Part shown: piece after piece, positions 1 to 47,825 of the stretch
Numbering within the stretch: position 1 is the stretch's first letter
How the letters are laid out: every line of letters starts with the position of its first letter
Assembly (NCBI GenBank): GCA_030424865.1
Contig: JAUHVR010000006.1
Coordinates: 124,001 to 188,000, forward strand
From: Alphaproteobacteria bacterium
GTDB taxonomy: Bacteria; Pseudomonadota; Alphaproteobacteria; Rhodobacterales; Rhodobacteraceae
Reading direction: 5' to 3'
Length of the DNA: 64,000 nucleotides
Notes under the pieces: generated by a model
The model's database searches: none
What the model was told of the DNA's origin: nothing
The model's input: only the letters and a program-made list of their open reading frames with translations
Made by a program: the position numbers and the translations under genes

Positions 1-522
1 CAGCAGCACCAGGTCGCCTTTGCCCGCCTGCGCCAGGTCGGCCATCATGCCGTCAAAGTCGACGCCGCGTGTCTCGTCATCGAAGTAGCGATAGGTCACC
101 GTCTCGATCTTCATATGCTTGAGGATCGACAGGTGGTTCGGCCAGGTCGGGTTCGACACAAAGACCCGGACATCCGGATTGGCCATCTTGGCCATGTCAA
201 AGGCCTGGCGCACCGCGCCGGTGCCACCCGGGGTCGCCGCCGCCGCCACGTTGGCGCGCGGCACCGCATCCCCCAGAACCAGAGAAATCATCGCGTCCGA
301 GAACCCGGGATCGCCGGCAAGCCCGGTGTAGGACTTGGTGGTCTCGGCTTCCCAGAGCTGCTTTTCAGCCGATTTGATGGCGCGCATGATCGGCGTCATG
401 CCTTCGGCGTTCTTGTAGACGCCCACGCCAAGGTCGATCTTGTCGGCGCGTGGGTCTTCGCGAAAGGCTTGCATCAGCGCCAGGATCTTGTCGGCGGGCT
501 GTTTCTGGATGGCTTCGAACAT
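1..522 (-). CDS. Aromatic/aspartate aminotransferase, N-terminal part
   Basis: This is the first 174 residues of a class I PLP-dependent aminotransferase; the C-terminal part, with the PLP lysine, lies beyond the left edge. The N-terminus (MFEAIQKQPADKIL, then DPRADKIDLGVGVYK) and the TPGGTGA loop that contacts the cofactor phosphate are typical of the AspC/TyrB group, which transfers amino groups between aromatic or acidic amino acids and 2-oxoglutarate. The start ATG shares its A with the TGA stop of the sulfurtransferase gene (TGATG), so the two are very likely translationally coupled. Assignment to the family is firm; aspartate versus aromatic specificity cannot be told from this part. 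Confidence 0.85.
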   Translation of the reverse strand, partial: MFEAIQKQPADKILALMQAFREDPRADKIDLGVGVYKNAEGMTPIMRAIKSAEKQLWEAETTKSYTGLAGDPGFSDAMISLVLGDAVPRANVAAAATPGGTGAVRQAFDMAKMANPDVRVFVSNPTWPNHLSILKHMKIETVTYRYFDDETRGVDFDGMMADLAQAGKGDLVLL

Positions 523-1376
523 CAGGTGTCTCCGGTGGCAATCGGCACGGTGGGGAACATGCCCCATTCGGCCCATGAGCCGTCATAGAGCGCATGATCG
601 GTCTTGCCAATCCGCTCCATGGCGAGGCTGAGCACGGCAGCCGTCACGCCTGAGCCGCAGGTGGTGATGGCGGGCTTGGACAGGTCCACGCCAGCCGCTT
701 CGAAGGTGGCGCGCAGGCCTGCGGCATCCTTCATGGTGCCGTCGGCGTTCAGCAGGGTCTTGAAGGGCACGTTCTTGGAATTCGGAATGTGACCAGCGCG
801 CAGGCCGGGGCGGGGTTCGTCAGCCTCGCCGCGATAGCGTTCTGCGGCGCGGGCGTCGATGATCTCGTGATCCTTCAGCTTGGATGCCGCCGACACCTGG
901 GTGATGTCGCGCACCATATGTGCCTGACGGCGCACGGTCATGTGACGGTCGCGCACAATGGGAGGCATATCCTCGGTCGGGCGATCCTCGGCCAGCCATT
1001 TCGGCAGTCCGCCGTCCAGCACGGCCACATCCATCTGGCCCATCAGCCGGAACAGCCACCAGACACGCGCCGCCGAGAACAGGCCCACGCTGTCGTAGAC
1101 CACCACCTGGTGTCCGTCACCCACACCCATGGCGCGCAGACGGGACATAAATTTCTCGATCGGCGGCGCCATATGCGGCAGGTCCGACCGGTTGTCCGAA
1201 ATCTCTTCGATGTCAAAGAACCGCGCGCCGGTGATATGGGCGGCCTCATACTCGGCGCGGGGGTCGCGGTTGTCCGTGGGCAGGTGCCAGGACGCGTCCA
1301 ATACCCGCAGGTCCGGATCCTTGAGATGCTGTGCCAGCCAGGCGGTGGACACCAGTGTTTTCGGATCATCCTGCAT
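522..1376 (-). CDS. sseA: 3-mercaptopyruvate sulfurtransferase
   Basis: This 284-residue protein has two tandem rhodanese domains. The N-terminal, non-catalytic domain contains a DASWHLP region and the C-terminal domain carries the catalytic cysteine in CGSGVTA, a loop of the 3-mercaptopyruvate rather than thiosulfate subgroup. It transfers sulfur from 3-mercaptopyruvate to cyanide or thiols, a cysteine-degradation step in the cytoplasm. The ATG at 1376 is chosen because the protein begins just before the first rhodanese domain (MQDDPKTLVSTAWLAQHL); the upstream in-frame extension is low-complexity. It overlaps the downstream aminotransferase, which could make mercaptopyruvate from cysteine, so the pair may act together (inference). 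Confidence 0.9.
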   Translation of the reverse strand: MQDDPKTLVSTAWLAQHLKDPDLRVLDASWHLPTDNRDPRAEYEAAHITGARFFDIEEISDNRSDLPHMAPPIEKFMSRLRAMGVGDGHQVVVYDSVGLFSAARVWWLFRLMGQMDVAVLDGGLPKWLAEDRPTEDMPPIVRDRHMTVRRQAHMVRDITQVSAASKLKDHEIIDARAAERYRGEADEPRPGLRAGHIPNSKNVPFKTLLNADGTMKDAAGLRATFEAAGVDLSKPAITTCGSGVTAAVLSLAMERIGKTDHALYDGSWAEWGMFPTVPIATGDT

Positions 1377-1579
1377 GATGTGAACCCTTGTTATGCGCCT
1401 GTTCTTTTGCCTACTACCGGCGACGGGCAGAGGCAAGCGATAGGCCAAGGCGCGCCCTCTGGCAGGGGCGATTTGCCATGGAATTTCAGCGACACCTGTT
1501 GGATACGTCAGTTTCTGACCTATCTCTCGGCTCTGGGCGCAAAGGGGCCTGAAACGGATCGAGGAACAGGAGCCATGAC

Positions 1580-2299
1580 ATGACCTCGAAAACCGATGTT
1601 GTTCTGATCTTGGGCAGTGGGCCAAACGCGGTCGAGGCACAATCGATGCCGCGCGCGGACCTGGGGCGCGTGGTGGCCATCAACAACGCCTGGCGGGTTC
1701 TGCCCGACTGGGATTTCTGCATCCACCCCGAGGATTTTCCGCCCGATCGTCGGCCACCGATGGATCGAAGCGGCGGCACCCTGGTGACCTACGAAAGCTA
1801 TGTGCCGATCCAGAACCGGTATGGCGGCTTTGTCTATGCCGGTGGCACCATGGCCTTTACCGCCGCCTATTGGGCGCTTGGGGCCCTGAAGCCCCGTGTC
1901 ATGGCCTTTCTGGGCTGTGACATGGTCTATGCCCCGACCGGCAACACACATTTCTACGGCACCGGAGAGGCCGACCCCCTGCGCGCCGATGTGACCCTGC
2001 AAAGCCTGGAAGGAAAGGCCGCACGTCTTGCCCTGCTGGCAGCACGGCAGGGGTGTCACTGCGTGAACCTGAGTGAAAACGAAAGTCGGCTGGTCTATCC
2101 GCGTGCGCAGCCGGGCGCTCTGAGGGACCTGGCCGTGCCGGGGGCACCTGAATCAACCCTGGCCGAAACGAAAGAGGCGGAACTGGGTTACTTGGTCGCC
2201 TCGGGGCGCTACTGGGAGGTTCAGGACCAGTTCGACGCAGACGCCTTGCGCGAAATCGATGCGCTGTGGCTTGAGGCCTATCAGGCCCGGATGGCCTGA
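1580..2299 (+). CDS. Unrecognised Rossmann-like protein (DUF115/Maf-like?)
   Basis: I do not recognise this 239-residue protein with certainty. It opens with a nucleotide-binding-like strand and loop (VVLILGSGPNAVE), followed by VVAINNAW, a conserved-looking CIHPEDFP, and FLGCDMVY before a THFYG motif. This order resembles the DUF115/Maf-like group of sugar- or pterin-handling Rossmann proteins, which is a weak similarity only. There is no signal peptide or membrane segment. It is transcribed away from sseA across a 203-bp divergent gap and ends exactly where the convergent smpB ends (stops at 2297-2299 and 2300-2302), leaving no room for a separate terminator. Confidence 0.75.
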   Translation: MTSKTDVVLILGSGPNAVEAQSMPRADLGRVVAINNAWRVLPDWDFCIHPEDFPPDRRPPMDRSGGTLVTYESYVPIQNRYGGFVYAGGTMAFTAAYWALGALKPRVMAFLGCDMVYAPTGNTHFYGTGEADPLRADVTLQSLEGKAARLALLAARQGCHCVNLSENESRLVYPRAQPGALRDLAVPGAPESTLAETKEAELGYLVASGRYWEVQDQFDADALREIDALWLEAYQARMA

Positions 2300-2773
2300 T
2301 CACTCACCGTGGCGCAGCAGCCGCTGCTTCTGACGGCCCCAGTCCCGCTTGGCCTCGGTCGCGCGCTTGTCGTGGTTTTTCTTGCCCTTGGCGATGCCGA
2401 TCTTCAGCTTCACCTTGCCGCGATGGTTGAAGTACATCACCAGCGGCACCAGTGTCATGCCCTTGCGCTGGGTGTCGGCCCACAGCCGCGACAGCTCTTT
2501 CCGGCTGACCAGAAGCTTGCGCTTGCGGCGTTCCTCGTGGCTGAACATCGCCTTGTTGTAGGGCGCGATATAGCTGTTGGTCAGCCACAGCTCACCATCA
2601 TCGACCGAGGCGTAACTTTCGGCGATATTGGCAGAATTCTCGCGAAGGGATTTCACCTCGGACCCATGCAGAACCACGCCACATTCGAGGTCATCCTCGA
2701 TGGCGTAATCAAAACGGGCGCGCCGGTTTTCGGCGATCACCTTGTAGTTCGGGTCTGTCTTCTGCTTGGCCAT
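2300..2773 (-). CDS. smpB: SsrA-binding protein SmpB
   Basis: SmpB binds tmRNA and delivers it to stalled ribosomes for trans-translation. The 157-residue length and the core motifs match the family: an N-terminal NRRARFDY stretch, GSEVKSLRE, the IAPYN loop and a basic C-terminal tail ([17 protein letters not shown]) that occupies the empty mRNA channel of stalled ribosomes. No ssrA gene is visible in the window. It is divergent from zapE over a 112-bp gap and convergent with the unknown gene on the left. Confidence 0.97.
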
Positions 2774-2885
2774 AAGATGGTCTGGTTACACGGGGTTTCA
2801 GGGTCTGTCGAGCGCCGTTAAGTAAGCATTGGGCCCTTGTGTCGCAAGGCCTACACAAGGCCGTGGCCGCACGGTATGCAACAGT

Positions 2886-3947
2886 ATGGAAACGCTGACC
2901 GATCTCTATGCCCGGCTGGTTGCTGCGGGCGACCTGACCGCTGACCCCGCGCAAGAGGCCGCGCTGCCCGAGTTCGAGCGCATCCGCGCCGGTCTGGCCG
3001 CGCCGCCGCCGAAACGCGGGTTCTTTCGCAAGGCGGTGCCCGAGATGGTCAAGGGGCTGTACCTTTGGGGTGGGGTCGGGCGCGGCAAGTCGATGCTGAT
3101 GGACATGTTTGTCGACAGCCTGTCAGTGCCCGCGCGCCGTGTGCACTTTCACGCCTTCATGCAGGAAATCCATGCCGGCATGCATGCCGCCCGCGCCAAG
3201 GGCGTGGACGACGCGATCCTGCCGGTCGCCAAGGCGGTTTCGGACGAAGTGCGCCTGCTGGCCTTTGACGAGATGCAGATCACCGATATCACCGACGCGA
3301 TGATCGTCGGGCGGCTTTTCGAGCAGCTCTTTGCAGCGGGTGTGGTCGTGGTGACAACCTCGAACCGGGTGCCGGATGATCTGTACAAGAACGGGCTGAA
3401 CCGCCAGCTCTTTCTGCCCTTCATCGATCTGCTGAAAGAGCGGATGGCCGTGCATGAACTGGCCTCGCCCACCGACTACCGCCAGAACCGGCTGACCGGC
3501 GAGAAGGTCTATTTTGCGCCTGCAGATAGCGCCGCGCGTGAGGCGATCAACGGGATCTGGACCGATCTGACCGGTGGCAAACAACAGGCGCTGACCCTGA
3601 TGGTTCAGGGCCGCGAGGTGGTCTTGCCGCGCTATTGGAACGGCGTGGCGCGCGCCACGTTCTATGACCTGTGTGGGCGGATGCTTGGGCCCGCGGACTA
3701 CCTGTCTCTGGCCGAGGCGTTGCGCGTGCTGGTGCTCGAAGACATCCCGCGCCTCAGTCGCAACAACTTCAACGAGGCCAAACGCTTTGTGACCCTGATC
3801 GACGCTTTGTACGAGGCCAAGGTCCGGGTCATTGCCTCAGCCGCCGCCGAGCCAGAGATGCTCTATGTCGAGGGGACCGGCGCATTTGAGTTTGAACGAA
3901 CCGCCAGCCGCCTGCGCGAGATGCAGAGTGAGGACTGGGGAGCCTGA
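2886..3947 (+). CDS. zapE: AFG1-family ATPase, cell division protein ZapE
   Basis: This 353-residue AFG1/LACE1-family P-loop ATPase has Walker A GGVGRGKS near residue 60 and Walker B LLAFDEMQ near residue 125. In E. coli the family member ZapE acts at the constricting Z-ring; the mitochondrial relatives help turn over respiratory-chain subunits. The ATG at 2886 (METLTDLYARLV) is preferred to an in-frame upstream start because the extra residues do not resemble the family. A long inverted repeat follows the stop at 3988-4040. Family assignment is firm; the role in division here is inferred from homologues. Confidence 0.92.
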   Translation: METLTDLYARLVAAGDLTADPAQEAALPEFERIRAGLAAPPPKRGFFRKAVPEMVKGLYLWGGVGRGKSMLMDMFVDSLSVPARRVHFHAFMQEIHAGMHAARAKGVDDAILPVAKAVSDEVRLLAFDEMQITDITDAMIVGRLFEQLFAAGVVVVTTSNRVPDDLYKNGLNRQLFLPFIDLLKERMAVHELASPTDYRQNRLTGEKVYFAPADSAAREAINGIWTDLTGGKQQALTLMVQGREVVLPRYWNGVARATFYDLCGRMLGPADYLSLAEALRVLVLEDIPRLSRNNFNEAKRFVTLIDALYEAKVRVIASAAAEPEMLYVEGTGAFEFERTASRLREMQSEDWGA

Positions 3948-3987
3948 CCTATCAGGCGTCGGCCTCTTTGGCCTCTGTCGACTTTGA

Positions 3988-4040
3988 GTATTTATGAGAA
4001 AGATGAAGGACAGACCTGCTCTTCATCTTTCTCCAAATAC
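3988..4040. terminator. Long inverted repeat between zapE and gyrB
   Basis: The arms at 3988-4008 and 4021-4040 are nearly perfect inverted copies (GTATTT..GAGAAAGATGAAG against CTTCATCTTTCTC..AAATAC) around a 12-base loop. It lies between the convergent zapE and gyrB stops and can fold on either strand, so it probably ends transcription from both sides. The AGATGAAG core looks like an intergenic element I associate with roseobacter genomes; whether it recurs in this genome cannot be checked here. Confidence 0.65.
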
Positions 4041-18230: not shown

Positions 18231-21200
18231 TCAAAGCCTCAGGTCTACACCGGATAAACCGGCATTTTCAGGGTGGTCGATTTCCGGTTCCTGGACGTCT
18301 GGTTTCGAAACGCCCATGTCGTCGGGCAAATGCGGCGTGTTCTGGTCTGGGTTGTGCCCTCCGCCAAATCCGACTTGGACGTCGCCCAGCCCCATCGAGG
18401 ACAACTCCGACTTGAGTTGATCGATGTGACGGCGAATCAGGTCCTGAGTCTCCGGGCGCGCGGACTGAACGTGCAAGGTGACGCCGGCATCCGTCATCGA
18501 CATGGACAGCTTGACCGCCCCCAGTTCCTCGGGCGACAGCCGAAGAGTGACCTGACCTTCGCGGATGGAGCTTACGGCCTCGGTGATCTGGCGCGTAACA
18601 GGTTGTGTTGACGGTTTTTGCGGGCTCAGGGGGTCCGTTGGGGATGATGTGATCCGGTCGGCAGTCCGCACATTCTGCAACTCAACGTCCGCCGAATGGT
18701 CCTTGAACGCTGGATCAAGGTCGGCATCGGACGTCTGTTGAACCAACGGGCGGAACTGGACGCCCTCGTTTGCCTTGGCAAGGGGACGGTGGATCGGACC
18801 CGCGGGGTCTCGGGATGCGATTTTTTCAACCTGAACATCAGATTTGATCCGATCCGCCCTGCCCACGTCGATGGTAACGTCCCGATTCGCGGTTTCGGGC
18901 AGCAGGACTGGCGTCACATGGCCGGAATGAATGGCGGCACTGCGGGCGGCATCTGGCAGGCCCGTGAGTGAAACTTCGTCCCTCCGGACCGGGCGTTTGA
19001 GAAGGGGCTCTTCGGTGGTGCCCGCATTCGCGCCAGTGACCACCTGATGGAGCCGGACGGTCCGAGGTTCAGGCGGATGGTCTGCGACCCGGGCGGAGTT
19101 CCTTTTGGGGTTCGGCAAAATGCGCGGATTTTCGGGGTTCAGGTCAGGCTGCCGCGCTTTTTGTCCTTCGGCCATGTCGAGGCTTGCCACCTCGGTTGCA
19201 TCGTCGCCGGGAACGAACCGGTCCTGAATGCGCGCGGCTCCAAGAACTCGCGGTTTGACTGACGTATCGATGGGCAGTCGAGGTGCCTGAGGTATCTTGG
19301 ATCCGTCCACCTTCGCCGCCGGATCCCTCGTCGCGGTCAGCCCCACATGGGCTTGCACGGACTCCGAGCGATCCCGCACCTTTGCCAGGTCTGGATTTGC
19401 CGCTTTCGCCGGATGTTCGACCTGTTTTTCAGGAACGCCTTGTGCCTGGCGCAAGACGAACCTGGCCGGCGCGTCAGGGGGCACCGTGCGGTCCCAGACG
19501 ATCCGCGCGCGCGGCCGCGGTTGCAACTTACGATCCTGAGGCAAGGATTTCGGCCGTTTCCGATCGGTGGTTTCGACAAGAAGTGGTCTTGCCGCATTTG
19601 TTTGTGCGTCCCGGACCAAAGGAGCCTGGTCGCCCGGTTCCAATCTGGGTCGCCCCGACAGTTTCGCATCGTGAAGGATCTCGGGCCTGACTGGCTTGTC
19701 TGGCCGGGCAGAGGTCTCGGGCCGCGCCGCTTGGTGCATGTCCTGTGCGGCCTGGTCTTTCGGTACGGCAAATCGGATCGGCACGTCTTTGGTCATACTG
19801 CGCGACGCGCGGGCCCTCAGAACAGGTTGCGGTTCATGGTTTGGGAGTCGTTTGGGCTGGTGATCCTTGACTTCGGAGCGCACGAGTTCGGCGCCAGGTT
19901 CCTTGGGCAATCTCTCGGCGGTGACGCCGTCAAGGGATTTGCCAACCGGTTTTGACCGGTCTTCGTGGTAGTGAACCTGCACACGAGACGTTTTGGGGTC
20001 TGCAAACTCCATGATCGGCTGTCCCGAATCCTTGCGCGCATGGAATGTCGCCTTGATCGGTTCAACCCGGGGCAGATCGCGTTTCGCGCGGAATTCCCTC
20101 GGCTGTGGAAAACCAGAATGCTGAAGGTCTCGAGAAGCGGTCAGCGACTTCTCTTTTTGAACCACTTCGCTGCCGGCCAACCGATCTTGCGGGACCGCGC
20201 GGGTATCGTGTTTGGGTCGCACCTCGTGTTTGTCCTGATCCGGCAATGCCAGGTCTATCGTGGTCCTGCGCTTGCCGTCCGTGGGCGCGATGCTGTCCGA
20301 CTTCGTCAAAATGGCGGTTTTGACGATGCCTTTTCGCGGATCGTGGGTCATCGGTTTCCCGGTGTTCGCGTCCAGATCTGGTTCGGCCTTCTGAACGGAC
20401 AGGCGAGGGTTGGCGACCACACCTTCCTTGACCACGTCGCTGTCGGGCACATGGCCGCGGGTCGGCAATTTGTCGGAACTGCCTTCGCTCTTCCGAGACG
20501 TCGGGATTGCAGAAACGCGCATCGTCGCCGTCGGTTCGGCCAATGCCCGGCGTTCCGCATCCAATCGGGGATGTATGTCGCGGTTCGGCTCGAGTCCGAT
20601 CGTGTCAAGTGCGCCGCCCGTTGGGCCCGCCGAGCTCAAGCGGTTTGTGCCGATTGCACCGGATCCGGTCGGCAGAATTTCGGACTTAAGGGCCGGTGAA
20701 CTTTCCTTCCTTTCCAGCCGGCTTTGAGCGACCGAGTGAAATTCACGATTGATCCTTGGGTCCGCTCTTGTTCTGATCCTGGGATCTTCGGTTCGATCCG
20801 CGGTCCGATCCGCCTGGGCGCGCACAGACGATTTTTCGGTCTGTGTGACCCCACGGTCCACCGGTCGACCATCTGATCGTTCTGCCTTCTGCGACAAGGA
20901 AACATCGTGATCAGTTGAGTTTGAGAGCCGTGGATCCGGTCGCGCGCGCATGAAGGGAACCGGCGTGTCCCCGATCCGTTCGACTTCGGGAAGAGAAATA
21001 ACTTGATTTTTGCCCTTGCCAACCGCCTGTCCGAGACCCGGTAGATACTTTCTGTCAAGTTGCCCGATATCGGGCGCCGCGCGCCGCCGGACTGCCTCTT
21101 TGTCGGCTGGTCGCTCTCGCACAGTGACCTGCCCATCACTCTTGTCCGTCAGTGCCCCGGAAGGGAGGTCTTGCACGTGTTTCCTTACGTCTGGCCCCCC

Positions 21201-21668
21201 GGGTCCGACAAGATCCCGGCCGTTGTCTTTCAATTTTGGACCTGTCTGCTCTGCAGTGACGCCAATTTGGGCCGGTGGATCAACGTCCTTCGTCGCGACC
21301 CCCGAGGGCGCATCGAGCACGCCGGGCGTCTCGACCTGGTCCTGGGCTTCTTGCGGGGCATGTGCCGTGGCGGGCCGGTCCGACGTTGTGTCCAAATCCG
21401 CTGAGTCGGCGTCTGTCTGTTGCCGGGCCGCCTCACGTTCCGGAACAACATCGTCGTTCGGCTCTTCGGCTTTGTCAGACAATGTCCCGGATGTGTCGGG
21501 ATCCGAAAAATCCGCCAACTGGGGTTCTGCGCCCTGCAGCCCACTTTCGGTTTCGGCCAGGACGACTGCAAAACTGTGCTCAGAAGGATCGGCCTCCGCC
21601 GGTCGCACGTCCTTGGCGTCTGCAGAGCCAGCAAACAGGGGATGATTTGCAAATAGTGTCAGGAGCAT
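18231..21668 (-). CDS. fliK: Flagellar hook-length control protein FliK, very long
   Basis: The C-terminal region (about residues 1010-1110) matches the FliK export-switching domain: REGQVTLRLSPEELGAVKLSMS followed by LRRHID-like and MGLGDVQVGFGGG segments. FliK measures hook length and then switches the export gate from hook to filament substrates. The first 1000 residues are low-complexity, highly charged and rich in Lys, Arg, Asp and Pro, and are probably disordered. At 1145 residues it is roughly two to three times the usual length. It is divergent from flgJ over a 110-bp gap. Confidence 0.88.
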   Translation of the reverse strand: MLLTLFANHPLFAGSADAKDVRPAEADPSEHSFAVVLAETESGLQGAEPQLADFSDPDTSGTLSDKAEEPNDDVVPEREAARQQTDADSADLDTTSDRPATAHAPQEAQDQVETPGVLDAPSGVATKDVDPPAQIGVTAEQTGPKLKDNGRDLVGPGGPDVRKHVQDLPSGALTDKSDGQVTVRERPADKEAVRRRAAPDIGQLDRKYLPGLGQAVGKGKNQVISLPEVERIGDTPVPFMRARPDPRLSNSTDHDVSLSQKAERSDGRPVDRGVTQTEKSSVRAQADRTADRTEDPRIRTRADPRINREFHSVAQSRLERKESSPALKSEILPTGSGAIGTNRLSSAGPTGGALDTIGLEPNRDIHPRLDAERRALAEPTATMRVSAIPTSRKSEGSSDKLPTRGHVPDSDVVKEGVVANPRLSVQKAEPDLDANTGKPMTHDPRKGIVKTAILTKSDSIAPTDGKRRTTIDLALPDQDKHEVRPKHDTRAVPQDRLAGSEVVQKEKSLTASRDLQHSGFPQPREFRAKRDLPRVEPIKATFHARKDSGQPIMEFADPKTSRVQVHYHEDRSKPVGKSLDGVTAERLPKEPGAELVRSEVKDHQPKRLPNHEPQPVLRARASRSMTKDVPIRFAVPKDQAAQDMHQAARPETSARPDKPVRPEILHDAKLSGRPRLEPGDQAPLVRDAQTNAARPLLVETTDRKRPKSLPQDRKLQPRPRARIVWDRTVPPDAPARFVLRQAQGVPEKQVEHPAKAANPDLAKVRDRSESVQAHVGLTATRDPAAKVDGSKIPQAPRLPIDTSVKPRVLGAARIQDRFVPGDDATEVASLDMAEGQKARQPDLNPENPRILPNPKRNSARVADHPPEPRTVRLHQVVTGANAGTTEEPLLKRPVRRDEVSLTGLPDAARSAAIHSGHVTPVLLPETANRDVTIDVGRADRIKSDVQVEKIASRDPAGPIHRPLAKANEGVQFRPLVQQTSDADLDPAFKDHSADVELQNVRTADRITSSPTDPLSPQKPSTQPVTRQITEAVSSIREGQVTLRLSPEELGAVKLSMSMTDAGVTLHVQSARPETQDLIRRHIDQLKSELSSMGLGDVQVGFGGGHNPDQNTPHLPDDMGVSKPDVQEPEIDHPENAGLSGVDLRL

Positions 21669-22602: not shown

Positions 22603-23817
22603 ATGTCAAGCATTCTGACCAACAACGGCGCCATGGTGGCGCTGCAAACCCTGAAATCCATCAACTCGAATCTGACGGACACCCAGAACCAGATTTCGAC
22701 CGGCAAGCGCGTCGCGACCGCATCGGATAACTCGGCGGTCTGGGCGATCTCCAAGGTCATGGAATCCGATGTCCAGGGCTTCAAGGCCATCTCTGACAGC
22801 CTTTCCCTGGGGCAATCCACCGTTGCCGTTGCGCGGTCGGCGTCCGAGACCATCACCGACCTTCTGACCCAGATGAAAGGCAAGATCGTCGCCGCACAGG
22901 AAGACAACGTTGACCGTGCCAAGATCAACGACGACGTGACCGCTCTGAAGAACCAGATCACTTCGGTCGTCTCTGCGGCTCAGTTCAACGGGTTGAACCT
23001 GATCGATGGCAACACCGCTTCTGCCGATGTTCTTGCTTCGCTGGATCGCGACATCAATGGCAACGTGACGGCGTCGAACATCACCGTGACAGGTCAGGAT
23101 CTTGCCGCGGGAAGCTACACCGCCAACGACATCTTCGGTTCGTCGGGTGGTACGCCATCGAGCGATGGTGACACCGTCGTGCTCTCTCTGGACCAGGGTG
23201 GTGGCTCGGACAACATCACCATCGATGACTCGGCAGGTGCTGCCTTTGCTGCCGGGGACCGGGTTGAGCTGCGGATCGGCGATCAGGCGGTGTCCTACAC
23301 CGTGACAACTGCAGACGCTGCGGCCACAACCACCTCTGACATCGTTGCCGTTGGCCTGAAAAACGCCATCGATTCGCTTGGGATTTCGGGACTGGTTGTC
23401 GATTACGACAGCGGCAGCCCGGGTGACCTGGCCTTTACCAACAACGGCACCGTCGACCTGACGGTCACCGGTCAGTTCGTCAACGCCGGGTCCGGTGGTC
23501 TGGGTGCGATGACGGGGATCGACGTCAGCACCTCGGGTGGGGCAACGTCGGCCCTGGCCACGATCGAATCCCTGATCGATACCTCGATCGATGCCGCGGC
23601 CGCATTTGGTTCGGTGGCAGGCCGGATCGAAACCCAGGCGAACTTTATCTCGTCGCTGACCGATTCGTTGAAATCCGGCATCGGCGCCATGGTCGACACC
23701 GACATGGAAGAAGCCTCGGCCCGTCTGCAGGCTCTGCAGGTGCAACAGCAGCTGGGCACCCAGGCGCTGTCGATCGCGAACCAGGCGCCGCAGTCGCTGC
23801 TGTCGCTCTTCCGCTAA
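22603..23817 (+). CDS. fliC: Flagellin
   Basis: This is the filament subunit, 404 residues. The conserved N-terminal D0/D1 helices (MSSILTNNGAMVALQTLKSIN, then QNQISTGKRVATASDN) and the C-terminal helices (LQVQQQLGTQALSIANQAPQSLLSLFR) are intact. Between them, residues of about 140-320 form a Gly/Thr/Asp-rich beta domain that would be exposed on the filament surface. It is followed by a strong hairpin and then flaF and flbT, the usual alphaproteobacterial flagellin assembly and dosage genes. Confidence 0.97.
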   Translation: MSSILTNNGAMVALQTLKSINSNLTDTQNQISTGKRVATASDNSAVWAISKVMESDVQGFKAISDSLSLGQSTVAVARSASETITDLLTQMKGKIVAAQEDNVDRAKINDDVTALKNQITSVVSAAQFNGLNLIDGNTASADVLASLDRDINGNVTASNITVTGQDLAAGSYTANDIFGSSGGTPSSDGDTVVLSLDQGGGSDNITIDDSAGAAFAAGDRVELRIGDQAVSYTVTTADAAATTTSDIVAVGLKNAIDSLGISGLVVDYDSGSPGDLAFTNNGTVDLTVTGQFVNAGSGGLGAMTGIDVSTSGGATSALATIESLIDTSIDAAAAFGSVAGRIETQANFISSLTDSLKSGIGAMVDTDMEEASARLQALQVQQQLGTQALSIANQAPQSLLSLFR

Positions 23818-23852: not shown

Positions 23853-23895
23853 TGACCCATGACCCAGAACTTTTGCAGAAGTGGAAGGATGTGAC

Positions 23896-24273
23896 GTGAA
23901 CGTTCACACCAATGCTGTGCGCGGCTATGCGCAATCGTCTGCCCCGACCCGAACACCGCGCGCCTCGGAATACAGTGTCATCGCCAGGATCACGCATCAG
24001 ATGCGATCGGCGGCCGCCCAGGGCAAATCAGGGTTTCCCGAACTGGCCTCAGCACTGCACGACAATCGACGGCTTTGGACCACCTTGGCGGTCGATGTCG
24101 CAGATTCCGATAACCCATTGCCCGCGGATCTCAGGTCGCGGATCATCTATCTGGCCGAATTCACGCATCTGCATACCAGCAAGGTGTTGAACGGAAGGGC
24201 CAATGTGCGCCCGTTGCTCGAAATAAACGCGGCCATCCTGCGGGGGCTCAACACCGAACGGCCAGCGACATGA
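23896..24273 (+). CDS. flaF: Flagellar biosynthesis regulator FlaF
   Basis: FlaF helps flagellin secretion and works with FlbT in alphaproteobacteria. The 125-residue product has the family pattern: YAQ near the start, RASEYSVIARITHQM, LHDNRRLWTTLAVDVAD and LRSRIIYLAEFTHLHTSKVL. The GTG at 23896 is chosen because AAGGA lies 6 bases upstream; a GTG at 23881 in the same frame has no such site. It overlaps flbT by 4 bp. Confidence 0.93.
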   Translation: MNVHTNAVRGYAQSSAPTRTPRASEYSVIARITHQMRSAAAQGKSGFPELASALHDNRRLWTTLAVDVADSDNPLPADLRSRIIYLAEFTHLHTSKVLNGRANVRPLLEINAAILRGLNTERPAT

Positions 24274-24677
24274 GCGGACTGGTATTGAAACTCGCCCCGC
24301 GCGAGCGCCTATTGATCAATGGGGCCGTTATCGAGAACGGGGACCGACGCAGCCGGTTTTCGATCGTTTCGCCGAATGCGAACATCTTGCGATTGAAAGA
24401 CGCCATTCATCCCGGCGACGCAAAGACGCCAGTGCGGCGCATGTGTTATGCTGCGCAACTTGTCCTGACCGGTGACGCCAATGCCGAAGAGACCAGCCAG
24501 TCATTGCTGCGTCGAATCGAAGAGTTGAGCCGGATTCTGACGGATGTCGACAGCCAAAGGCATTTGGCCAATGCGACGCAAGCCTTGCTGGAAGACCGGT
24601 TTTATCATTGCCTGAAGTCGTTGCGCGCATTGATTCCAAGAGAGGACCGTTTGTTGGCGGCGCGGCCGGAACAATGA
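24270..24677 (+). CDS. flbT: Flagellar biosynthesis repressor FlbT
   Basis: FlbT binds the untranslated leader of flagellin mRNA and lowers its stability until the hook is complete. The 135-residue protein begins MSGLVLKLAPRERLLINGAVIENGDR, a strongly conserved FlbT start, and has the RRMCYAAQLVLTGD segment. It overlaps flaF upstream and the DUF1217 gene downstream (ATGA at 24674-24677). Confidence 0.95.
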   Translation: MSGLVLKLAPRERLLINGAVIENGDRRSRFSIVSPNANILRLKDAIHPGDAKTPVRRMCYAAQLVLTGDANAEETSQSLLRRIEELSRILTDVDSQRHLANATQALLEDRFYHCLKSLRALIPREDRLLAARPEQ

Positions 24678-25303
24678 GCTTTCAGCCGGTTATCGTGGGC
24701 GTCGGTCTGAGCGCCTGGTCCTTTCTGAAATCCACGCGAGACAGCCAACGTATCGCGCACCAGTCGGACACCGTCTCTCAACGAGAGGACGCGTATTTCC
24801 GCGACACCATAGGATCTGTCGACAGCGCCGAGGATCTTGTCGCGGATCGCCGTCTTCTGGCCGTGGCGTTACAGGCCTTTGGGTTGTCGAACGATCTGCC
24901 CAATACGTTCTTTGTGCGAAAGATCCTCGAGGATGGAACGCTTGATCCCGGCGCCCTGGCGAACCGGCTGGCTGACAGCCGCTATACCGAGTTTTCCAGT
25001 GCATTCGGATTTGGAGATTCGGCCGTGCCCCGGACCAAGTTGTCCGGGTTCGCCGACGAAATCCTGCTGAAGGCGCAGGATCAGAGGTTCGAAGAGGCGG
25101 TCGGCGTGCAGGATGATGCCTTGCGCCAGGCGCTGTACTTCGAACGAAAGCTTCCCGAGATGGCGCGCGATACCGCGACGGACAGCAGTCGATGGTTTCG
25201 CCTCATGGGGGACAAACCGATGCGTCTTGTGATGGAACAGGCGCTGGGACTGCCGCAATCCTTTGGTCAGCTGGACATCGACAAACAGCTCGAGATGTTT
25301 TGA
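24674..25303 (+). CDS. DUF1217 flagellar protein, cut short by an in-frame TGA
   Basis: This 209-residue product has the DUF1217 pattern (an N-terminal SAWSFLKSTRDSQR-like segment, then LLAVALQAFGL and FFVRKILEDGT), a family found in alphaproteobacterial flagellar loci. It ends LEMF-stop, yet the same frame continues for 60 codons that look like the missing C-terminus. Full length would be about 270 residues, near the family norm as I know it. The likely causes are a nonsense mutation or a base-call error; the function of the family is not firmly known. Confidence 0.8.
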   Translation: MSFQPVIVGVGLSAWSFLKSTRDSQRIAHQSDTVSQREDAYFRDTIGSVDSAEDLVADRRLLAVALQAFGLSNDLPNTFFVRKILEDGTLDPGALANRLADSRYTEFSSAFGFGDSAVPRTKLSGFADEILLKAQDQRFEEAVGVQDDALRQALYFERKLPEMARDTATDSSRWFRLMGDKPMRLVMEQALGLPQSFGQLDIDKQLEMF

Positions 25304-25486
25304 GACAAGGCCCAAAGCCGCTATGGCACATCTGACCTGGAGGAGCTGGCAAAGCCCGAGATGATGGAAAAGATCATTCGGACGTTCCTTTTGCGCGAAC
25401 AGGTCAGCCAGTTCGGGGCCAGCAGCTCGGCCTCGATCGCTCTGACACTTCTGCAATCATCAAGATTACCGTCGCTGAGCGCCTGA
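25304..25486 (+). pseudogene. Detached C-terminal end of the DUF1217 gene
   Basis: Sixty sense codons follow the TGA at 25301-25303 in the same frame, reading DKAQSRYGTSDLEELAKP, then MMEKIIRTFLLREQ and ending at the TGA at 25484-25486. The amino-acid composition and helical pattern continue the upstream protein. There is no ribosome-binding site for independent translation at a likely start, so this end is lost unless the stop is read through. It overlaps the convergent fliI 3' end by 21 bp. Confidence 0.8.
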
Positions 25487-26815
25487 GCCCGTTGATGCCG
25501 CGCGACGCAGAATCAATGACAGCTGCAAAAACGCCTCGTCAGATCCGCGGCCGTTGGTTTCGGCAAAGAAAGCTTCCAGCGGTTCACGTGCACGTACGGC
25601 CTGATCCACCACGGCATCGGCCCCTTCACGGTAGAGACCGGCCTGGATCATCGTTTCTGTTCGCGCATATCCCGCCAGCAACTGGCGCGTTTCAGCAATC
25701 AGCGCGTTTTCCTTGTCGTCAGCGGCTTCGGGCAAGCTGCGTGACACAGAACGCGACACGTCTACGGCTGGAAATCGGCCTCGTTCGGCAATCTTGCGGT
25801 CCAGGACGACATGCCCGTCCAGCACGCCGCGCAGAATGTCCGCGATGGGTTCCTCCATATCCGAACCGGCAACCAGAACGCTGAAAACCGCCGTGATATC
25901 CCCGCTCTCGGCGGTTCCGGGCCCCGCGCGTTCGCACAGCGACATGATGTTGTGCGCAACCGATGCCGGAAACCCGCGCATGGCAGGAAGCTCCCCGGCT
26001 GCAACTGCGACCTCGCGGTGCGCTTCCGCGTAACGTGTCACCGAGTCGATCAACACCAGAACCTGCGCGCCTTGATCCCGAAAATGCTCAGCCACGGTCA
26101 TCGCCGTCTGGGCACATCGCCGACGCTGCAAGGCAGAACGATCCGAAGTTGCTGCAACGACGACGCTGCGGGCCATGCCGTCAGGGCCCAGGACGTTGCG
26201 GACAAAATCCCCCAGTTCGCGCCCCCGTTCCCCCACAAGGCCCAGCACAACGACATCGGCCTCACATCTGCGGGCAAGGTTGGCCAAGAGGCGGGATTTG
26301 CCAACCCCCGAGCCGGCGAACAGACCGATGCGCTGACCCCGGACAATCGGCAGCATCGTATCAAACAGGTTGATACCCGTTTCCAACCGCACCCCGAAAC
26401 CGCGACGTTCGGCGGCGGGCGGAGGTTCGCTGCCCAATGGGCGATGGTGTTCACCGGGCAGCAGCGGACGCCCATCCAACGGCAACCCCATCGGATCAAC
26501 GATGCGCCCGATCCAGGAACGGGACGGCGCCACACGCGCCGCGCCGCGCGCTGTGACGCGATCACCACGGGTGACACCTTCGGGGGCGCCGTCGGTCAAG
26601 GCCACGAGACCGGTGGCCGAGACGTTCAATATCTCGCCCTCCAGCCATCCGCGTCCACGCCGCTCGATGCGCAACACATCCCCCACGGCCACCTGCCCTG
26701 ACAGACCGGTGACCTGCACGGTTCCGCCCTGAACGGCCTCGACCCGCCCCACTGGGCGCACAACCTTCAGTGCGCCCAGGCTTCCCGCCACGGCCCGCAA
26801 CTCTGATCCCGGCAT
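25466..26815 (-). CDS. fliI: Flagellar export ATPase FliI
   Basis: FliI is the F1-beta-like ATPase of the flagellar type III export machine. The 449-residue protein has Walker A AGSGVGKS, the GLVGERGRELGDF loop, Walker B VLVLIDSVTRYAEA and the KNxI-like C-terminal ATPase region. The ATG at 26815 follows AAGGAG by 6 bases; an in-frame TTG at 26830 has no such site. It is divergent from flgB across a gap with a CtrA-like box. Confidence 0.96.
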   Translation of the reverse strand: MPGSELRAVAGSLGALKVVRPVGRVEAVQGGTVQVTGLSGQVAVGDVLRIERRGRGWLEGEILNVSATGLVALTDGAPEGVTRGDRVTARGAARVAPSRSWIGRIVDPMGLPLDGRPLLPGEHHRPLGSEPPPAAERRGFGVRLETGINLFDTMLPIVRGQRIGLFAGSGVGKSRLLANLARRCEADVVVLGLVGERGRELGDFVRNVLGPDGMARSVVVAATSDRSALQRRRCAQTAMTVAEHFRDQGAQVLVLIDSVTRYAEAHREVAVAAGELPAMRGFPASVAHNIMSLCERAGPGTAESGDITAVFSVLVAGSDMEEPIADILRGVLDGHVVLDRKIAERGRFPAVDVSRSVSRSLPEAADDKENALIAETRQLLAGYARTETMIQAGLYREGADAVVDQAVRAREPLEAFFAETNGRGSDEAFLQLSLILRRAASTGSGAQRR

Positions 26816-26862
26816 CGTTCGCTCCTTCAAGCTTTCGAGAACCGTTTCTAAAGGAATCAGGG

Positions 26863-46857: not shown

Positions 46858-47646
46858 TTACAGATCGAAAGTGGCAAAAACCGGCGCGTGGTCGCTGGGT
46901 TTTTCCCACCCACGCGCGTCGCGCAGGATGCGGCTGGAATGCGCGGCACCTGCGATGTCGGGTGTGGCCCAGACATGGTCCAGTCGGCGGCCCTTGTCCG
47001 CGGCGTCCCAATCGCGGGCGCGGTAGCTCCACCAGCTGTACAGCAACCCCTCGGGGATGTCGGCGCGGGTCACGTCGACCCATTTCCCTGCATCCATCAC
47101 CTGGGCCATATGCTCGACCTCGATAGGGGTGTGGCTGACCACCTTGAGCATCTTCTTGTGGTCCCAGACATCGTCTTCGCGCGGAGCGATGTTCAGATCG
47201 CCGACCAGAATCGCCTTCTCGGGCGTTTCCGCGTGAAACCAGTCGCGCATGTCGGTCAGGTAGTCGAGCTTTTGTCCAAACTTCACGTTCTTTTCGCGGT
47301 CCGGCGCGTCACCACCTGCGGGGACATAGAAGTTGTGGATCGTCACGCCGTTTTCCAGCCGCCCCGCCACATGGCGGGCATGGCCCAGACCGGCGAAATC
47401 CTTGTCGCCCGCATCCTCGATCGGCAGCTTCGACAGGATCGCCACGCCGTTGTAGCCCTTTTCGCCGCGCGCGACCATGTGGCGATAGCCGAGGGCCTCG
47501 AAGACTTCGACCGGGATCTTGGGCACCGGCGACTTGCATTCCTGCAAACACAGCACGTCGGGGGCCTCTTCGGTCAAAAGCTTCGACACCAGATTGGCGC
47601 GCAGACGGACCGAGTTGATGTTCCAGGTGGCAAGGGTGAAGGACAT
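46858..47646 (-). CDS. xth: Exodeoxyribonuclease III
   Basis: Exonuclease III cuts abasic sites and degrades 3' ends during base-excision repair. The 262-residue EEP-fold protein has ATWNINSVRLR, CLQECKSP, the GYNGVAILSK loop, LVGDLNIAPREDD and SDHAPV, so the metal- and catalytic-site residues are intact. It is separate from the response regulator by a 226-bp region that contains the candidate small RNA. Confidence 0.97.
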   Translation of the reverse strand: MSFTLATWNINSVRLRANLVSKLLTEEAPDVLCLQECKSPVPKIPVEVFEALGYRHMVARGEKGYNGVAILSKLPIEDAGDKDFAGLGHARHVAGRLENGVTIHNFYVPAGGDAPDREKNVKFGQKLDYLTDMRDWFHAETPEKAILVGDLNIAPREDDVWDHKKMLKVVSHTPIEVEHMAQVMDAGKWVDVTRADIPEGLLYSWWSYRARDWDAADKGRRLDHVWATPDIAGAAHSSRILRDARGWEKPSDHAPVFATFDL

Positions 47647-47730
47647 GCGAGGCTCCGATTTCGTGTGCCGCGCAAAACTGCCGGGAACGCAGGCCACGTG
47701 CAACCCGAAGTCTGTGCAAAAGACCCGCGC

Positions 47731-47759
47731 AAAAAAAGACCCGGGTCGATGCCCGGGTC
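47731..47759 (-). terminator. Rho-independent terminator (minus strand)
   Basis: An 8-bp perfect stem, GACCCGGG and CCCGGGTC with a 6-base loop, is followed on the minus strand by seven T's. It is one of the strongest terminators in the window and lies 85 bp before the xth ATG. Confidence 0.9.
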
Positions 47760-47808
47760 AGTCCAACAGGGAGGTGCATGTGATGACCCGCACATGCGAC
47801 GGGGTGCT
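47731..47808 (-). ncRNA. Candidate 78-nt small RNA with Fnr-type promoter
   Basis: The minus strand has an Fnr-type box (47842-47855), a TTTAAG -10-like element at 47815-47820 and an expected start near 47808. The transcript would contain a first hairpin (GCATGTG/CACATGC, 47776-47797), an unpaired stretch with CCTCCC, able to pair with Shine-Dalgarno sequences, and a strong terminator stem with a U-run. It has no plausible ORF. The organisation is that of a trans-acting small RNA. The alternative is that these are just the terminator of the regulator gene and an unrelated downstream hairpin. Confidence 0.5.
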
Positions 47809-47825
47809 TACGAACTTAAAAGGTG

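Follow-up and report, generated by a model that had tools for sequence, protein, structure and literature searches.

Does the in-frame TGA that interrupts a DUF1217 gene in this marine bacterium, whose genome is a draft assembly of 35 contigs, reflect a nonsense mutation, an error in the sequence, or a stop codon that is read through? The gene lies among flagellar genes in a window of 64,000 nucleotides (the whole stretch of DNA that was analysed). A reading of the DNA letters without database searches (the sequence-only reading) had described a premature stop after residue 209, 60 further sense codons, and a full length of 270, and had offered these same three explanations. Its coordinates and lengths are correct. 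As for its explanations, a nonsense mutation fits best, and we found no support for readthrough in either the relatives or the tRNAs. The features at the locus are:

22603..23817, + strand: fliC (flagellin), intact
23881..24273, + strand: flaF, intact
24270..24677, + strand: flbT, intact, with a stop that overlaps the start codon of the DUF1217 gene
24674..25303, + strand: DUF1217 (CP1) gene up to the premature TGA; ATG at 24674, 209 codons
25301..25303, + strand: in-frame TGA, codon 210; a sense codon in all 93 distinct relatives
25304..25483, + strand: 60 in-frame sense codons (the tail), homologous to C-terminal sequence in the full-length relatives
25484..25486, + strand: original stop TGA, which together with the last codons overlaps the 3' end of the convergent fliI
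25466..26830, - strand: fliI (export ATPase), convergent to the DUF1217 gene, intact

Read through the premature stop at codon 210, the full frame has 270 codons. The reading frame is identical on both sides of the TGA at 25301-25303, which rules out a frameshift or homopolymer error. Residues 1-209 belong to DUF1217 (PF06748), with a score of 136.1 bits over positions 1-134 of the 149-position profile (the gathering cut-off is 22.9). The match of the read-through product rises to 141.7 bits and reaches residue 230, which corresponds to profile position 148 of 149.

Gene order identifies the window's DUF1217 gene as CP1 of the fla1 flagellum in Rhodobacterales. CP1-4, a set of four conserved fla1 proteins, are described as essential for swimming in Phaeobacter inhibens, and a fliC-flaF-flbT-CP1 cluster is reported on a 124 kb plasmid of C. 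sphaeroides (PMC12363192). The term DUF is absent from the main text of that paper. On plasmid pA of C. sphaeroides 2.4.1 (124,316 bp), the genes for flagellin, flaF, and flbT are followed by one for a DUF1217 protein. Because the window has this same order, with the DUF1217 gene at the place of CP1 in fliC-flaF-flbT-CP1, we take the two to be the same gene. Paroceanicella profunda also has the window's arrangement: fliC-flaF-flbT-DUF1217, followed by fliI, flgB, flgC, fliE, and fliQ. In P. inhibens, CP1 insertion mutants were immotile and regained swimming upon complementation; they secreted most flagellar proteins, including flagellin, and no flagella were seen by electron microscopy (PMC12363192). 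This essentiality is known from a different genus and from transposon insertions, as opposed to a truncation at the point of codon 210.

If the stop were ordinary for CP1, then some relatives should share it or end nearby. A search of the taxonomic family found a match in 213 of 295 genomes, and we opened 93 distinct sequences, drawn from the loci that our searches gave and from 60 further loci. Nearly all of the opened sequences are among the best-scoring matches, so that distant members are under-sampled. At position 210, these relatives have arginine (41), lysine (34), glutamine (13), serine (2), threonine (1), alanine (1), or valine (1), and none of the 93 has a stop codon. All 93 encode proteins of at least 261 residues. 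The nearest relative, from the same genus (the congener), shares 76% identity along the full frame, carries arginine at position 210, and ends at residue 262. The TAA of the congener might be taken for a second premature stop, and we rejected this because it is that protein's own end (codon 263); in-frame stops in other opened matches from the family search are likewise protein ends. The sequence-only reading had named relatives that end naturally at residue 209 as an observation that would count against a lesion, and with 0 of 93 such cases, a natural end at this point is ruled out. The window gene, which stops at residue 209, is by this comparison a CP1 copy that is broken or truncated and not an ordinary member. 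It has an in-frame stop where its orthologues have sense codons, as is expected for a nonsense pseudogene. Separately, we noticed two longer DUF1217 proteins with extra sequence, of 407 residues in Salipiger mucosus (locus L009, 6001-7191) and 399 residues in Citreicella sp. C3M06 (locus L010, 6001-7194).

The proposal that the 60 codons continue the protein is borne out by their homology to the C-termini of relatives: 36 of 52 residues (positions 211-262) are identical to the congener, as compared to 164 of 209 before the stop. The rate of nonsynonymous differences from the congener (pN) is 0.201 in the tail and 0.127 before the stop, and every pre-stop stretch of 52 codons lies below the tail, at 0.090-0.176. 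We attribute the higher value to weaker conservation of the tail across the family, where its mean column identity is 0.37 as compared to 0.54 before the stop. Of the 16 sites in the tail (211-262) where the window protein and the congener disagree, 7 have the rarer or a private residue in the former and 9 have it in the latter. Similarly, the window protein keeps 12 of 16 conserved tail residues and the congener keeps 13. Conservation among 90 relatives reaches 93-99% at tail positions 256, 257, 259, and 260 and 98% at position 218. Thus, relative to the congener, we saw no lineage-specific decay of the tail. Since this lineage gives no sign of relaxed selection, the stop is either recent, an artefact, or without effect. 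(Saturation of synonymous sites relative to the congener precludes a dN/dS for the tail; this comparison of residues takes its place and dates the stop no more finely.) By these comparisons, the TGA is either a nonsense substitution of recent origin or an erroneous base call; it marks neither an old pseudogene nor a natural end nor an indel.

What would the protein lose? We modelled the full-length fold from an alignment of 92 rows (mean pLDDT of 94.4). The model has helices at 202-217, 228-249, and 252-263. The stop cuts inside the first of these and removes the other two. The crystal structure of AGR_C_984p from Agrobacterium tumefaciens (2o8s) matches residues 9-247 of the model (Z = 23.4, rmsd of 2.2, 219 residues aligned), which implies that helix 228-249 is part of the solved fold. 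2o8s also matches by sequence profile (E = 5e-44), with 26% identity in the structural alignment. We found no other clear fold match; we did not take the remaining hits as relatives, and in the comparison that gave 23.4 for 2o8s, they had Z of at most 4.5. Since helices 228-249 and 252-263 and the conserved positions 256, 257, 259, and 260 are lost, the truncated CP1 is likely, on the basis of the model, to have lost its function.

The sequence-only reading also tied the stop to the absence of several flagellar genes from the window, a link that the rest of the genome does not bear out. Indeed, among the genes that we scanned in the window, we did not find motB, flgE, flgK, flgL, flgI, fliG, or FliM. 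These turned out to lie on other contigs in uninterrupted frames: flgI, flgE, flgK, motB, and fliG have no stop inside the match, and flgL is a protein with a flagellin C-terminal domain that is encoded between flgK and flgI. FliM had no match in the genome by PF02154, and a 379-residue frame on another contig matches FliMN_C, which we take as a putative FliM-like protein. A similar separation is known in Rhodobacterales: in Dinoroseobacter shibae, 108 genes separate motB-flgE-flgK-flgL-flgI from the other flagellar genes (PMC12363192).

Nor is any other compared gene in the window's flagellar cluster broken. We compared ORFs of the congener to 92 kb around the gene, and of the 65 ORFs that we chose, 63 matched with at least 50% identity (18,487 aligned residues). 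The TGA at 25301-25303 is the sole true interruption among these 63 genes. Four other stops (8148, 26872, 41185, and 41212) and two frame changes that we inspected (1417-1764 and 47696-47809) lie within 5' extensions or antisense frames. These lie outside true genes, which rules out a decayed flagellar system. The genome contains no second DUF1217 gene, so the family is single-copy here. As far as we checked, the sequence therefore contains a single lesion in an otherwise intact set of flagellar genes.

We made three other observations in this region. First, fliK (window 18231-21668, - strand, 1145 residues) shows much weaker conservation in the congener than the genes beside it, and its C-terminal part alone was matched (49% identity). 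Second, synteny breaks near window 3950-4030: 1-3949 and 4030-53329 match two separate and oppositely oriented stretches of the congener's contig. Third, the small RNA SorX (RF02784) is predicted at window 47733-47804 on the - strand (74.6 bits; the gathering score is 46.6), upstream of a gene of the endonuclease/exonuclease/phosphatase family (46858-47703), in a stretch that is conserved in the congener.

We consider it likely that the TGA arose recently as a nonsense substitution, at codon 210 of the 270 that make up the single-copy CP1 gene. It is probably an ordinary loss-of-function nonsense allele and not a new coding trick. Translation would end at residue 209, and the product would lack its two C-terminal helices and, with them, the most conserved motif of the tail. 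The truncated product would be unstable or inactive. Flagellar parts would still be exported and the flagellum would not be built, as in the CP1 insertion mutants of P. inhibens. We expect neighbouring genes to be unaffected because CP1 is the last gene in the fliC-flaF-flbT-CP1 run and faces fliI. If the stop is real, then the strain is predicted to be non-motile and to lack flagella while secreting flagellin, even though its flagellar genes are complete as far as we checked. The stop also singles out the final 61 codons of CP1 for attention.

The main alternative, which we view as possible and clearly less probable, is that the TGA is a substitution error in the draft assembly and that the cell carries an intact gene. 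One substituted base in a gene that shows no other damage and no decay of its tail is what such an error would look like, as is the sole interruption that we found in a 35-contig draft, and the gene is essential for swimming in a relative. However, the most common error in long reads is an indel, and the TGA is not one, as the frame does not shift across it. Furthermore, one true interruption per 18,487 aligned residues does not suggest an error-rich assembly. Because there is just one interruption in the genes that we compared, we rank a real mutation above an error; both rankings are our judgements.

We think it very unlikely that readthrough of the UGA, whether by suppression, selenocysteine insertion, or a leaky stop, yields some full-length CP1. 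The tail still carries family-like residues, and without readthrough, the strain would be without a flagellar gene on which swimming depends in a relative. However, the absence of a stop at this codon in the 93 relatives means that there is no conserved recoding site, which programmed recoding would be expected to show. Also, no anticodon UCA was present among the 41 tRNAs that we found, a list from which some expected tRNAs, Ile (GAT) and Tyr among them, are missing. Programmed recoding with selenocysteine would also involve a tRNA-Sec in the genome, and none scored above the cut-off; the best match (44.7 bits as compared to 47) is at a tRNA-Ser. The 11 tRNA-Sec matches below the cut-off coincide with tRNAs from the general model, and none of these reads UGA. 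The least probable explanation is that the 209-residue form is functional and that the species has dispensed with the tail: this form does retain the bulk of the Pfam domain (positions 1-134 of the 149 in the profile), but the tail is kept in all 93 distinct relatives, the near-invariant positions (256, 257, 259, and 260 at 93-99% and 218 at 98% of 90 relatives) all lie within it, and the Agrobacterium structure contains a counterpart of the lost helix 228-249. Taking these last two explanations together, there is only a slim chance that the strain swims despite the stop, either by useful readthrough of the UGA or because a CP1 of 209 residues suffices. If it does, then the conserved C-terminal helices of CP1 would be regulated or dispensable in the assembly of the flagellum.

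Our searches also bear on the distribution of CP1. The 2025 paper describes CP1 as uncharacterised and reports that CP1-4 are absent from fla2 and fla3 clusters and from outside the Rhodobacterales (PMC12363192). Contrary to this statement of confinement, we observed DUF1217 genes, the family of CP1, in flagellar clusters outside the Rhodobacterales. In Azospirillum lipoferum, a DUF1217 gene follows flaF and flbT, with fliI, flgC, fliE, and fliQ nearby; in Phyllobacterium and Sinorhizobium, it lies between motA and flgF, which differs from its place after flbT in the window. We also found a DUF1217 gene after flaF and flbT on a Sulfitobacter plasmid. (The clusters from Azospirillum, Phyllobacterium, Sinorhizobium, and Sulfitobacter are our plasmid loci L168-L171.) A DUF1217 gene is also listed between motA and flgF in Brucella (PMC7410920); this paper and PMC9430466 were the literature matches for DUF1217, 2O8S, or AGR_C_984. 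CP1 thus appears to represent, in the Rhodobacterales, an older flagellar protein of the Alphaproteobacteria. By gene order, CP1 belongs to DUF1217, a family with a solved structure that is also found in flagellar clusters of Hyphomicrobiales and Azospirillum.

The closest characterized counterpart is CP1 of P. inhibens DSM 17395 (PGA1_c23640), which, judged by gene order, is the same gene as the window's DUF1217 gene. It lies away from the main flagellar cluster (PMC12363192). The window copy differs from it in having a premature stop. As a lesion, the window gene resembles a nonsense allele or a unitary pseudogene in a bacterial genome: it has the same single in-frame stop, a homologous tail, and no second copy. 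Unlike a unitary pseudogene, it has no further lesions or decay, so if the stop is real, it would be very young.
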